Source: a virus
Strand: one strand, 5' to 3'
IMG/VR virus record: IMGVR_UViG_3300043219_000150
Coordinates: 1-35,912 of that record
DNA length: 35,912 nucleotides
Shown here: positions 1,352 to 35,912 of the stretch, in pieces
Layout: each line of letters starts with the position of its first letter
How positions within the stretch are numbered: position 1 is the first letter of the stretch
Translations under genes and position numbers: made by a program
The notes under the pieces: model-generated
The model's database searches: none
What the model was told of the DNA's origin: nothing
The model's input: the letters and a program-made list of their open reading frames with translations, nothing else

Positions 1352-3430
1352 TCATGTTGGTGTCCACGTTCCAACTATATCCGTAATATGTGCACTATTT
1401 GAAAAATATTTCCTTAATGTTATAGAACTACCAAACCCTGAAGCAAATCCAACACCACTATTTAACCCGTAAGGTGTAGCTGGTTGGATATTATCAGATA
1501 AATCCTCTAACGCTACCGAACATTTACCACTGTTTACTATACTAACTCTATGTGCAACACCATACGAAAAATTAGGTATTACATATTGTTGCAATGCAGA
1601 TGTTAGAAAAACATGCCATGGTACTGGGGTAAGATCCCCAAATGAAGGGGGAATGTCTGCAAAATTGACAGGTGTCATTGATTCCATAAACACAAAATCG
1701 GCAGACCCTCTTAAATACGGCGGAACTAATATTATACCAAATGACACTCTAACATCATCCTGGGAAGCTGCATTCCCTCCTGTATTCTCATTAGAAACAG
1801 AGCAAGGTGGTGTTAGCATTGTATTAGAATCAATAATACTAGGGACATTTAAATTCTCAATAGAAATGTTTCTTATTCCGACCGCGCCCCCTCCTTGTCC
1901 GGAAGTTCTAATATTTACGGCTGCCCCACTATCTGGATGTGTTCCATTTTCTGTATTATTGTTGTTTATTATAATGTTTGTAATTGTTAGCATAGGTGAA
2001 TTTTCATTCCAGTTTGTTACTCTGATTCCATTAAACATAGTGTCATGGGTATAAACATCATTAATAATAATTGATCCCTCATTTTTATTTGCACCCCCTA
2101 CAGCGTGGAAGATATCGCAAGCATTCCATGATAAAGAAGTATTCAAACCATTAACGGTAATATCTACAGGATCAGATAAACCGGCAGTATAATTCTGTAA
2201 ATATATTGAGAGGTCATATTTATTGTTCCCACCCTTTAAATTATTTATAACTATTTTTTTTAGTGGTTGTCTATAATCGTTAGGCTCTATATCTAAGCCG
2301 TTCCACTGGGTCAGTACATGGGATGGGGAATTTTGTGTATCAGTAGCTGTAAACGTATCAACTAAAATATCATCAACACAAACAATTGCCATACCTTGTC
2401 TCATGTTTTTGTCACCCCAACCATTCCGGACAACAATTCTTTCAGAAGGGATTAATATATCATCCTTGCTATGTCCTACATAATAACCATCTCCAATACA
2501 GTACGATGCTTTTGTATCGTTTAGAATAACATCAGTACAAGCACCAAAATGGAAGCCGTGACCATGTTCTCCAGCACTTCCAGAAAAGTCATGAGTATCT
2601 GCATCACCTCTTACTTTAAGATTGTTTATTATTATATTGCTACCTGACATATGAATAAGACTATATTCGCCTGATGCAAATGTTGGCATTTGAAAAGTTG
2701 AGTTATTTCCTTCTATTTTAATTGCTGAAGTTAAAGAAATACATGTTGGATATTGCTCTGTTAATGTTGCATCTATCAAATATGTTTTTTCACTGTCTAA
2801 TATTAAAGTCCTTCCCTCTGCTAGTGCATAAGTAAAAGCCTCTAATATCTGTGTTGTTTCATTTCCTATTCCAAACACACCAAAGTTATAAATATAGAAC
2901 TCTGTTACATCTCCCCATTCCCAACGACCTATAGAAACACCATCAACTGCAATTATACTACCACCATTGTCCGCTACAGTACTTGATTCGTTCCATTGGT
3001 AATAAGGCATGTTTGGAACATCCCCGACAGTTATATAACCTCGAACCAGCACAGAATAATCTTTTACATTGGGATTAAGATTTCTTAAATCTGCTATTGT
3101 ATCAACTTGTTGTAACACCTTCCCTGCAGGTGCATTAAAATAGTCAACGGAATCTAAGAGACTATAAACTTGTTTCCCTTTTTTATCTTGAACTAATATT
3201 GAGTAATTACCAGGTGTGTACAACCTTCCAGGTGATCCGTTGCTTGATGGATAACCACCTTTAGTCCGGATATTTGATGCTGGAATACTTAAACCACTAT
3301 CCCAGAATGCTTGAATTGGATTTGACAAAGGATTTAACCCTGCCTCTCCTATTTTAATATAACCATTCTCTAGAGGGTCCCCATCTACGTCTGTAAAAAT
3401 CTTGTATCCATTTTCTACTAATGCTGGCAT
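1352..3430 (-). CDS. Tailspike with P22-type head-binding domain
   Basis: A 692-aa protein at the P22 gene 9 position, last of the structural genes. Residues 1 to about 100 resemble the P22 tailspike head-binding domain: 'GYIKIG' followed by an N-P-x-N type turn, 'PIQAFWD', a GY/GG turn and 'YSILVQDKKGKQVYS'. A neck follows at about 100-165 (DTIADLRNLNP), leading into a long right-handed beta-helix region with many short Ile-, Asn- and Val-rich rungs (NNLKV, VILNDT, IVINNL, IIINDV). The C-terminal ~120 residues form a trimerisation-like beta domain. The spike would bind and probably cleave a host surface polysaccharide. The receptor and the active-site residues cannot be read from the sequence. 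The stop is 22 bases upstream of an A/T-rich gap. Confidence 0.85.
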   Translation of the reverse strand: MPALVENGYKIFTDVDGDPLENGYIKIGEAGLNPLSNPIQAFWDSGLSIPASNIRTKGGYPSSNGSPGRLYTPGNYSILVQDKKGKQVYSLLDSVDYFNAPAGKVLQQVDTIADLRNLNPNVKDYSVLVRGYITVGDVPNMPYYQWNESSTVADNGGSIIAVDGVSIGRWEWGDVTEFYIYNFGVFGIGNETTQILEAFTYALAEGRTLILDSEKTYLIDATLTEQYPTCISLTSAIKIEGNNSTFQMPTFASGEYSLIHMSGSNIIINNLKVRGDADTHDFSGSAGEHGHGFHFGACTDVILNDTKASYCIGDGYYVGHSKDDILIPSERIVVRNGWGDKNMRQGMAIVCVDDILVDTFTATDTQNSPSHVLTQWNGLDIEPNDYRQPLKKIVINNLKGGNNKYDLSIYLQNYTAGLSDPVDITVNGLNTSLSWNACDIFHAVGGANKNEGSIIINDVYTHDTMFNGIRVTNWNENSPMLTITNIIINNNNTENGTHPDSGAAVNIRTSGQGGGAVGIRNISIENLNVPSIIDSNTMLTPPCSVSNENTGGNAASQDDVRVSFGIILVPPYLRGSADFVFMESMTPVNFADIPPSFGDLTPVPWHVFLTSALQQYVIPNFSYGVAHRVSIVNSGKCSVALEDLSDNIQPATPYGLNSGVGFASGFGSSITLRKYFSNSAHITDIVGTWTPT

Positions 3431-19941: not shown

Positions 19942-19970
19942 AGAAAAAGCACCCGGTTAAGAGTGCTTTA
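19942..19970 (-). terminator. Intrinsic terminator ending the early/middle leftward operon
   Basis: On the minus strand AAAGCAC, 10-base loop, GTGCTTT forms a 7-bp stem followed by TTC. It lies 19 bases downstream of the Tad2-like gene and before the terminase genes, and so divides the accessory genes from the late operon. Confidence 0.72.
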
Positions 19971-19987
19971 ATAATAGTTAATAATTT

Positions 19988-20269
19988 TTATTCTACAATA
20001 GACCAGTCACAGGCCAATACATCGTTAATAGAAGGTACCCACATGGAGTGCGAACCATCAGCACACTTTAATTGCAAATAGGGATTACAAACAAATAAAT
20101 CACCCTCTTTTAAGTTCCAGGCTTCAGCTGTTTGTTTATTACATGGGATTCCATCCGGATAGCCTTTTTGATAAACAACAAACATTCCTTTACCATTCCA
20201 CCCGGATCTTTCAACTTTAAAACCACCTTTTAAAGCTTCTAGAGCAATACCAAAGGAAATTGTTTTAAT
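19988..20269 (-). CDS. Tad2-like (DUF2829) anti-Thoeris protein, frame opens with ATT
   Basis: A 93-codon frame directly after the TAA of the gene upstream. Residues 1-28 read IKTISFGIALEALKGG then FKVERSGWNGKG, and residues 29-93 end 'YLQLKCADGSHSMWVPSINDV...DWSIVE'. This is the whole DUF2829 pattern: FGEALEALK, R/K-x-GWNGKGM, a GYPDGI segment, a MKTADG-like strand and the DW-x-IV end. Proteins of this family (Tad2) bind and sequester the gcADPR signal made by Thoeris defence. No ATG, GTG or TTG precedes the conserved N-terminus in frame. ATT at 20267-20269, in TAAATT, is the only candidate before the upstream stop. Met29 is preceded by AAAGGA without proper spacing and would delete the conserved first helix. 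Translation could begin at ATT by reinitiation, or the gene may be damaged. Confidence 0.75.
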   Translation of the reverse strand: MKTISFGIALEALKGGFKVERSGWNGKGMFVVYQKGYPDGIPCNKQTAEAWNLKEGDLFVCNPYLQLKCADGSHSMWVPSINDVLACDWSIVE

Positions 20270-20521
20270 TTATGTACCTGGATTAACATCAAAAGTTTTT
20301 AACCTGTCAAACAAAGATTTTAACTTTTCTCTTACATCTTTAACAAATACTTCATTGTTATGATCCGGTAACATAGTCAAAAGACAATCATAAATATCCT
20401 CTGCATCATTTGCCATTATCCATGCAGTTAAAAATGATTCAGTACTCATACCCTGCAAATAAGGAGAATTATTAATCTCTACAAACAGTTTTTGGGATGC
20501 TTCCATACAACTTTTAGTCAA
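20270..20521 (-). CDS. Hypothetical protein (83 aa)
   Basis: Starts with TTG at 20521, after GAGGGG with good spacing; the first ATG, six codons later, has no ribosome site. The protein is helical and acidic-to-neutral (MEASQKLFVEINNS, AEDIYDCLLTMLPDHNN) and ends in a Lys-rich helix and DVNPGT. Its TAA stop is followed with no gap and in frame by the Tad2-like reading frame. No family was recognised. Confidence 0.55.
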   Translation of the reverse strand: MTKSCMEASQKLFVEINNSPYLQGMSTESFLTAWIMANDAEDIYDCLLTMLPDHNNEVFVKDVREKLKSLFDRLKTFDVNPGT

Positions 20522-20945
20522 TTTTAAACCCCTCTATCCTTTCACCTAAAATAACAGCATACCCAATCATGTAATTTAACTGTTTAGAGAGTAGATCATC
20601 ACTACTCTTTTCTAAATATGCTTCCAGTTTTTTGATATTACCATGTAATGCATCATATTCATCACAAACCCTTTCTTGATATCCTTCTGATACCACATGC
20701 ATACTTAGACCAGAATCATAACTAGTAGTCTTAGTATAAGCACCATGAAAAACATCTTCAGGACTCCAAGACACATAACCCTCATACTCTTTAGTATTAG
20801 GCTTTCCACCTTCTACATATTCAACCAGAAAACCTTTATCATCCCCGTTTTCATCTGCAGGAAGATCCCAACCTCTAAACTCATTGTAAGCCAATCTTGT
20901 CATAGGTTTTGCATTGATCAACTTTACACCTATAAATCTTTTCAT
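20514..20945 (-). CDS. Phage protein of unknown function often found beside DUF2829 genes
   Basis: A 143-aa protein. The first 70 residues have the conserved pattern 'MKRFIGVKLINAKPMTRLAYNEFRGWDLPADENGDD', then 'GFLVEYVEGGKPNTKEYEGYVSWSPEDVF', which I recognise from many tailed-phage genomes as an uncharacterised domain, sometimes fused to a DUF2829 domain. The C-terminal half is a coiled coil (DALHGNIKKLEAYLEKSSDDLLSKQ). The ribosome site GGAGGG is strong. In P22-like and other phages this protein lies in accessory regions; its activity is not known to me. Confidence 0.6.
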   Translation of the reverse strand: MKRFIGVKLINAKPMTRLAYNEFRGWDLPADENGDDKGFLVEYVEGGKPNTKEYEGYVSWSPEDVFHGAYTKTTSYDSGLSMHVVSEGYQERVCDEYDALHGNIKKLEAYLEKSSDDLLSKQLNYMIGYAVILGERIEGFKID

Positions 20946-22869: not shown

Positions 22870-24036
22870 TTATTTTAGTCCTTGTAATATATGTACAATA
22901 ACTTGTATTGTCCATCCATTACCAAATTGTTTATATAATTGTGATTCTGATACTCCTGAAGATAACATTCTGTCAATAATATCTTCCGGAACAGTTTACA
23001 ATCGTCCACATTCTCGAGGTGTTAATCTTCTTACTTTAAAAGATGATGTTTCAAGTATTACGGTATCTTTTTGAACAGTTGTTAAACAATTACTAATGTC
23101 CGGATCTTTATTGACTTCGAGCATTTGAACAGTTGGCAATCCTGATTCTCTTGATTTTGGGTTATCCGGATTACGACCAGTTATTCTACAGGCTTCAGCT
23201 ACATCTACTTTTATTAAACACTCTTTACCATCATTCCCATATCTTTTAAGAATTGTTTTTGAAATACTATTTCCATCCTCTAAATTATAACCAAAGCCGT
23301 GGCCTCTTTTTTTAGAGTCTAATTGTCTTCTATCTAACCCCTGAATAGCCTTATTAGATAAATAATATTTTTCGTTTACCTGGTCCTCTAGTATATCTCT
23401 CAACCTCAACCCTTTGTTTTTAGGCTGTGAAATACAATTACCAAACAATGTTAATTCAGATCCTTCAATATTAGTCCAATACAATCTTTTCCTTGATTGA
23501 GCCGAAACCAAAGAGCTATTTATTAATACAGCCTCGACACCTAAAGCATCATTTATTACTATATTCCAACCCTTATTCATTTTTACATTTTCTAATAAAA
23601 ATAATACATCCGGGTTATCCACTTTTATTTCTTCTAGGATTCGCATATACTCCCAAAATAAATATGAATACCCTTCAAATTGAAAGTTTTCAGATTTTAA
23701 TATTAAATATTGTTCCAGGGTAATTATTTCTATATTTTCAATAGTGGTCATACCATTACTCTTCCCAGCAAATGAAAAAGATTGGCATGGAGATCCTCCA
23801 ATAAAAAACCCCACTTTACCAATATCAAAAACACCGTTATCAGTAACCAAAACACCATTACTATAATATATATTCCTAACATCCCCCATTTGTATATTCT
23901 GTGGGTATAAATGTTTTTCTATTTTTAACGCATATTTATCAACTTCACTTGAAAAATAGTTTTTATATTTTATACCAGCTGCATCAAGTGAAATATTCCC
24001 TCCCGAATGACCGTTAAATAAACTTACTACATTCAC
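22870..24036 (-). pseudogene. C5 cytosine DNA methyltransferase interrupted by in-frame TAA
   Basis: The reading frame encodes 346 residues up to TAA at 22996-22998, then continues in the same frame for 41 codons to a second TAA at 22870. Motif I is VVSLFNGHSGGNISL, motif IV is GGSPCQSFS (Pro83, Cys84, Gln85), motif VI is LLENV, motif VIII is QSRKR. The part after the stop, TVPEDIIDRML then YKQFGNGWTIQVIVHIL, is the conserved C-terminal motif X region. In relatives the codon after 'ECxRL' is Gln, so CAA to TAA is the simple explanation. Without motif X the enzyme should be inactive, unless the stop is read through or suppressed. Its probable role is to protect phage DNA against restriction; the target sequence is unknown. 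The next start overlaps the preceding gene (ATGA). Confidence 0.82.
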
Positions 24037-32521: not shown

Positions 32522-33084
32522 TGACAGATATAACAGGTAAAAGATTAAAGGATTGTGACATTATTGATATCCACCAAACTGTTAATGGTGTGAATACATT
32601 TTTAATATGTGTTAGAAATGACAAAGTTGTAAACATTAAATACTGGATTGATAATAGTATCTGGAGAGATTACGAATACAACCAGGATGAACTATTAGAG
32701 CCTGGGAGATATTCTGGAGTCTCTGAGTTTACAATTATTGATAATGCTAAAAATCATCCAGTTAAATTTTATGAACATCCTTTAGAGTCTAAAAAAGAAA
32801 CAAAAGACGATTATCAAGCTTTCAAAGAGGTAATGGAGAGTAATCATATAGAACAAATGAAAAATATAAACCCTCCACATAAATCAACTCCTATAACAGA
32901 TAAAGAGATTGAAGAAACCAAAGAGATATTAAGACGTATAGCTGTAAGGCAATTTACATCTCCTAATATTGTTAAATGGATCAATAAAGGGTTAGAGATT
33001 ATTGTAATGCTGCAGGTAGAAAACGGTTTACTTAATAAACAGGTTAAATTCTATAAAGATAAGGAGAGTAATAAAAATGTATGA
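32518..33084 (+). CDS. Hypothetical protein (188 aa)
   Basis: An N-terminal ~70-residue beta domain (CDIIDIHQTVNGVNTFLICVRNDKVVNIKYW) is followed by a charged helical C-terminal half (EIEETKEILRRIAVRQF, KGLEIIVMLQVENGLLNKQV). The start overlaps the previous stop (ATGA). No known family. Its last codons overlap the ribosome site and start of the RuvA-like gene. Confidence 0.55.
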   Translation: MMTDITGKRLKDCDIIDIHQTVNGVNTFLICVRNDKVVNIKYWIDNSIWRDYEYNQDELLEPGRYSGVSEFTIIDNAKNHPVKFYEHPLESKKETKDDYQAFKEVMESNHIEQMKNINPPHKSTPITDKEIEETKEILRRIAVRQFTSPNIVKWINKGLEIIVMLQVENGLLNKQVKFYKDKESNKNV

Positions 33085-33469
33085 TTCTATAACAGGTATA
33101 GCTACATATAAAAGAAAAGATCATGTAGTTATTGAGAATGCAGGTATTGGATATAAAATATTTTGTTCACTACAAACCAGAAATGAGGTTAAAAAGGTTA
33201 ATCAGCATACAAAACTATATATTTCTGTTGAACATAATGAAAAAGAGATAAGTCTATATGGCTTCTATACGACCGCTGAGAGAGATATGTTTGTATCATT
33301 GATAAATGTACCAGGGTTAGGTAACAAAATAGCTATGTTGGTGCTTAGTTACTTCACAGTGGACTTTTTAAAGTCTGTTATAGAGGGTAGAAAGACATAT
33401 GAACTTATGAAGGTTAAGGGCATTGGTGAAAAGTTTGCCGTTAAGATAATTGCAAAGATTAAATATTAA
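33077..33469 (+). CDS. RuvA-like Holliday junction-binding protein lacking domain III
   Basis: A 130-aa protein aligned with residues 1 to about 133 of bacterial RuvA (about 200 aa). Domain I (OB fold, about 1-62) has 'GYKIFCSLQTRNEV' and 'LYISVEHNEKEISLYGF', the latter carrying an acidic stretch at the pin. Domain II (about 63-130) has both helix-hairpin-helix motifs: 'LINVPGLGNKIAMLVLSYF' and 'KVKGIGEKFAVKIIAKI'. The normal domain III, which binds RuvB, is absent. It could bind or protect junctions without calling the host RuvB motor. Start ATG follows AAGGAGAG. No RuvB or RuvC gene is present in the window. Confidence 0.87.
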   Translation: MYDSITGIATYKRKDHVVIENAGIGYKIFCSLQTRNEVKKVNQHTKLYISVEHNEKEISLYGFYTTAERDMFVSLINVPGLGNKIAMLVLSYFTVDFLKSVIEGRKTYELMKVKGIGEKFAVKIIAKIKY

Positions 33470-35563: not shown

Positions 35564-35830
35564 TTACATAAATATTTTATCTATTATATAAACAATAACA
35601 ATTATGTACATCTCTATGTTAAATCTTTTTTTACTTGTTTCTTTTGCATGATCATTTAAGTGATTATCAAGTCTTTGTTCTACTAATGGTACTTTTTGAA
35701 ATATTTCATCATGGCTAACAACTTTTTCATTTATTGGACTAATCACAGATTCAAGGAACTTACGTTGATTATCGAACCCTTCATTCATAATCTCTCTCAT
35801 TTCTTTTCGCTCTTCAATTGTCATGCTCAT
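35564..35830 (-). CDS. Coiled-coil protein with C-terminal membrane anchor (XhlA-like, lysis region)
   Basis: An 88-aa protein; start at 35830 because GGAGG plus a purine run lies just upstream (the frame opens five codons earlier inside that site). Residues 1-65 are a charged coiled coil (TIEERKEMREIMNEGFDNQRK; LVEQRLDNHLNDHAKE); 70-87 is a membrane helix (IEMYIIVIVYIIDKIF). This matches XhlA-type hemolysin/lysis helpers or, less likely, a spanin subunit. It follows the endolysin across the genome junction and ends the late operon. Confidence 0.62.
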   Translation of the reverse strand: MSMTIEERKEMREIMNEGFDNQRKFLESVISPINEKVVSHDEIFQKVPLVEQRLDNHLNDHAKETSKKRFNIEMYIIVIVYIIDKIFM

Positions 35831-35912
35831 AAAACCCCCCTCCATATATCAATTATATTATATGGATATTCTAATATTTTCAATAATTATTCTATTTCTT
35901 AGACACTAAGTG
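35712..35912. repeat. Right copy of 201-bp terminal direct repeat
   Basis: Same sequence as 1-201 apart from C at 35839 where the left copy has T. On the minus strand this turns GGAGAGGGG into GGAGGGGGG in the ribosome site of the coiled-coil lysis gene. Confidence 0.93.

Follow-up and report, generated by a model that had tools for sequence, protein, structure and literature searches.

Background

The Tad2 domain (DUF2829) is found as a free-standing protein in several phages and solved structures, including SPO1 gp34.65, ModTad2 (8v3e/9eib), phage G gp59 and SpaA1 P7. The Tad2 tetramer is interlocked by helix α1 (PMC12043709). The domain is also found in phage proteins of the phrog_872 type, in which an N-terminal module (here the N-module) is followed by a short linker and then by Tad2. 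Roughly one in three of the closer homologs has this architecture, and the N-module of these fusions follows the pattern MKxYIGxK...GYxSWSPKxxFExAYR.

A few bacterial genes, such as infC, pcnB and cvfC1, are initiated at AUU. The efficiency of AUU relative to AUG is put at about 0.3% in E. coli by PMC10666635, which cites Hecht 2017, and at about 10% in S. aureus, where it is seen only behind extended Shine-Dalgarno (SD) sequences (PMC13009471). Very short distances are favourable for termination-reinitiation (PMC10666635), and a spacing of +3 works at galT/galK (PMC12548453).

Here, we describe a Tad2-like frame in the metagenomic virus record IMGVR_UViG_3300043219_000150, the whole of which (35,912 nucleotides) was analysed and is referred to as the window. 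The frame resembles the free-standing Tad2 proteins in domain, fold and length, but they mostly have ATG at residue 4 (MNFG or MTFG), whereas it has ATT at residues 4 and 1. It is 78-81% identical to the Tad2 half of three fusions (designated L001, L003 and L005) and has the linker signature in common with them; these, however, have an ATG about 60 codons upstream and remain fused, while the window copy is separate and has no start. It shares with the AUU-initiated bacterial genes an AUU at the start position, but in the S. aureus case the SD is extended and conserved (PMC13009471), and that in the window is weak.

The Tad2-like frame

The frame is located at 19988-20269 on the minus strand, and consists of 93 sense codons (IKTISFGIALEALKGG...DWSIVE) followed by TAA, with no stop or frameshift within the 93 codons. 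An earlier note on this DNA, made from its letters and open reading frames, had described a DUF2829/Tad2-like protein at 19988-20272. The identification is confirmed by all of the matches given below and the frame is as described, but the length of 285 bases counts the TAA of the upstream gene. The 93-residue frame matches the Pfam family PF11195 (Tad2-like, DUF2829) over residues 5-92, and thus over almost its full length, with E = 2.6e-23 and a score of 82.8 bits against a curated cut-off of 25. It also matches phrog_1048 and phrog_872, and solved Tad2 proteins match it at about 4e-19. Its relatives are up to 81% identical, and the frame can therefore not be due to chance. AlphaFold2, using 48 homologs, predicts a structure with a pLDDT of 95 and a helix at residues 6-14, and a Foldseek search with this model gives significant scores only to structures of the Tad2 family (E about 1e-9), as expected for a Tad2 fold. 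All 11 residues that are invariant in the alignment are kept, the family-invariant set including F6, G16, R21, GWNG, Y64, D83 and DW; residue 87 is C, compared to E87 in close relatives. On these matches and the model, the frame is a genuine Tad2-family domain. If it is made, its function is presumed, by analogy with the known Tad2 proteins, to be the sequestering of gcADPR-type Thoeris signals.

The earlier note had further stated that the 28 N-terminal residues contain no ATG, GTG or TTG, that the frame opens with ATT right behind the TAA of the upstream gene, and that an annotation of residues 29-93 would miss a key helix. All of this holds. The first canonical start in the frame is the ATG of Met29 (20183-20185, minus strand), the upstream TAA is at 20270-20272, and the 65-residue ORF that results from Met29 (19988-20185, minus strand) has lost both the predicted helix 6-14 and the GWNGKG motif. 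The ATT at codon 1 (20267-20269, minus strand) directly follows the TAA. A second in-frame ATT, at codon 4 (20258-20260, minus strand), is located where comparison with relatives shows free-standing Tad2 genes to carry ATG, and has no SD at a usable distance.

The relatives do not share this feature. Among the viral and genome loci examined, every Tad2 copy with a complete upstream frame has an ATG, GTG or TTG at residue 12 or earlier, and 16 further Tad2 loci found by an exact-pattern scan agree in having a canonical start. In most free-standing copies the start is found at residue 4 (MNFG...), and in fused copies it is located upstream by about 60 or more codons. Among roughly 160 relatives examined, none is start-less; nor is AUU found at the start position in any of them. 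In a Tad2 copy on another metagenomic viral contig (L027, near 3001-3276), the GWNGKG motif is interrupted by a stop codon.

Relationship to two-domain phage proteins

A maximum-likelihood tree of 97 Tad2 domains, based on only 90 columns, places the window Tad2 as sister to L001, a 155-residue fusion (support 99/84). The five nearest rows to the window Tad2 in this tree are all N-module fusions, and it is thus nested among them. The linker signature agrees with this: at position 5, which is next to the start of the free-standing proteins, 27 of the 30 fused copies have T or S and 44 of the 49 free copies have N, D or K, and the window has S. We infer that the window Tad2 is a former C-terminal domain of a two-domain phage protein that has lost its N-terminal partner. 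Both the tree and the signature suggest that it lacks a start because it was once internal to this larger protein. A fusion origin as the likely reason for the missing start is new to the present analysis.

There is no single gene in the window carrying both an N-module and Tad2, the N-module being in another gene and Tad2 being preceded by a stop. This other gene (20514-20945, minus strand) is identified by domain and PHROG matches as an N-module joined to a crAss001_48 C-terminal domain. Its N-module is of another subtype, being 61% identical to L054 and 39% identical to L001. Because of this difference in subtype it is not the former partner of Tad2, and the old partner is gone; no remnants of a fusion N-module are found just upstream of the ATT in any frame.

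The occurrence of the N-module on a crAss001_48 domain makes it look like a promiscuous phage N-terminal module. In L001 (2806-3273) and L003 (2809-3276), the fusion genes adjoin apparent portal, minor head or scaffold genes. In phage SpaA1 (L204), the free-standing Tad2 gene is located between genes annotated as minor head and scaffold, where an anti-defence gene would not be expected.

The upstream gene and the translation signals

The gene directly upstream, here called ORF83 (83 codons, 20270-20521, minus strand), is in the same frame as Tad2, and its TAA abuts the ATT, leaving a gap of zero. It has a coding-like codon usage and starts with a TTG behind a good SD (GAGGGG). No relatives of ORF83 were found in the viral contigs, phages or genomes searched, and its structure is modelled with low confidence as a helical protein with four helices. 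An intrinsic terminator (19946-19969, minus strand) follows just after the Tad2 frame, making Tad2 the last cistron before the terminator. No close copies of the window Tad2 locus were found, although near copies may be missing from the collections searched.

Elsewhere in the phage there are two other same-frame junctions at which TAA is directly followed by ATG (10303/10302 and 26965/26964). The junction of TAA and ATT differs from these by a single base, which makes the ATT abutting the TAA of ORF83 the probable start site and the most plausible one in this frame. The signals around it are mixed. A weak SD-like AGGT (20276-20279, minus strand) is located 6 nt before the ATT, with an energy of -3.9 kcal/mol compared to about -6 to -12 kcal/mol for most genes here, and is neither strong nor extended. 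The RNA around the ATT is unstructured (-2.7 kcal/mol). Judged from these signals, low coupled expression from the AUU is possible.

Selection and the integrity of the record

The changes private to the branch of the window Tad2 comprise 9-14 synonymous and 0-5 nonsynonymous changes, and the frame has thus been under purifying selection along its branch. Compared to the sister branch, this branch has somewhat more amino-acid changes (7-11 versus 4-5). Given that the private changes are mostly silent, the frame was functional over most of its history, and the loss of the start would be recent, partial or artefactual.

Base-level changes are found elsewhere in the window. The frame of a cytosine-5 DNA methyltransferase (PF00145; 22870-24036, minus strand) is interrupted by a TAA at 22996-22998, leaving a stopped ORF at 22996-24036. 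A pattern scan of the viral contigs found no relatives of this protein, and the comparison was therefore made with two relatives from phage records, in which the TAA corresponds to the Q of RLQTVP; beyond it, the frame runs on into motif X (QFGNGWT). The window also has direct terminal repeats of 201 bp (1-201 and 35712-35912), by which the contig closes on itself, and these have one mismatch (T at 128, C at 35839). Whether such changes are real variants or errors, in view of them it is quite plausible that a single base could account for the loss of a start or for a stop within a fusion, and the interrupted methyltransferase and the mismatch together raise the chance of damage or base error. 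It may be added that the window encodes a RuvA-like protein (33077-33469, plus strand) with RuvA_N and HHH but without the third domain.

Possible explanations

The explanation that we favour, although we would give it only about an even chance, is that the window Tad2 is the former C-terminal domain of a fusion that has become start-less by recent loss or base error, and makes little or no full-length product. The ancestor would be a two-domain phage protein with Tad2 as the half following the N-module. Recombination would then have taken away the N-terminal partner, leaving Tad2 behind the unrelated ORF83 and just before the terminator. The natural start would be the codon abutting the TAA of ORF83, which is now ATT behind a weak AGGU, and for this reason full-length output is probably little or none, or at most a small amount from ribosomes that have just completed the translation of ORF83. 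As the cause of the missing start, a loss that would have occurred recently in the phage, or an incorrect base in the metagenomic record, is more likely than an evolved device. We count against this explanation that an unstructured site abutting a stop suits reinitiation, that the 93 codons are intact, and that the tree has so few columns.

The main functional rival to start loss or base error is that ribosomes ending at the UAA of ORF83 reinitiate at the adjacent AUU and produce a low, coupled amount of the 93-residue Tad2. The zero gap between stop and start, the AGGU 6 nt upstream, the open RNA structure and the purifying selection on the branch all fit this proposal, as do the known AUU starts and short-distance coupling (PMC13009471, PMC10666635, PMC12548453). 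However, no relative uses AUU, the SD is weak whereas the known S. aureus AUU/AUA starts have extended SDs, and an output of about 0.3-10% seems poor for a stoichiometric sponge. We consider this unlikely, though worth keeping in mind. The earlier note had offered ATT reinitiation, a fusion read through its stop, or damage; this is the right set of options, but from the sequence alone there is no preference for the ATT mechanism.

The other rival is that ORF83 and Tad2 were once one gene, ORF83 being a new N-terminal partner, and that the TAA between them is due to a nonsense mutation or a base error, or is a stop that is read through. The two share one frame and are not separated by a start, the close Tad2 relatives are all fusions, and a TAA at a conserved glutamine is seen in the methyltransferase of the same record. 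Against this, no such fusion and no relative of ORF83 has been found, and the SD-like AGGT and the placement of the TAA resemble ordinary gene junctions. Moreover, most genes here (18 of 26) end in TAA, the 5721 codons counted in 12 genes include no in-frame TAA, and no suppressor tRNA was found in the window. This origin also seems improbable to us, though not negligible.

It is very unlikely that only the 65-residue form is made: Met29 is the only canonical start in the frame, but this form lacks helix 6-14 as well as the invariant F6, G16, R21, G23, W24, N25 and G26, and helix α1 is the element that interlocks the Tad2 tetramer (PMC12043709). Selective read-through of UAA in particular genes by the phage or host, by which ORF83-Tad2 and the methyltransferase would each form one longer, partly translated protein, is unlikely and receives hardly any weight from us. 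Genome-wide reassignment of TAA is ruled out by the absence of in-frame TAA from those 5721 codons, together with its use to end most genes. Frameshifting by -1 out of the short frame that starts at ATG 20287-20289 was also considered, and was rejected as improbable, since the sole candidate site, TTA AAA C, does not conform to the standard slippery heptamers and the SD is a poor one.

Implications

The window locus would illustrate how a Tad2 domain can be separated from a fusion protein and end up start-less. Gene finders would report either a truncated 65-residue protein here or none at all. When metagenomic phages are surveyed for anti-defence genes, it is advisable to look for start-less Tad2 frames and to leave these out of the count of active genes. 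Should the AUU indeed be in use, this would be a rare case of a translationally coupled, weakly expressed anti-defence protein.
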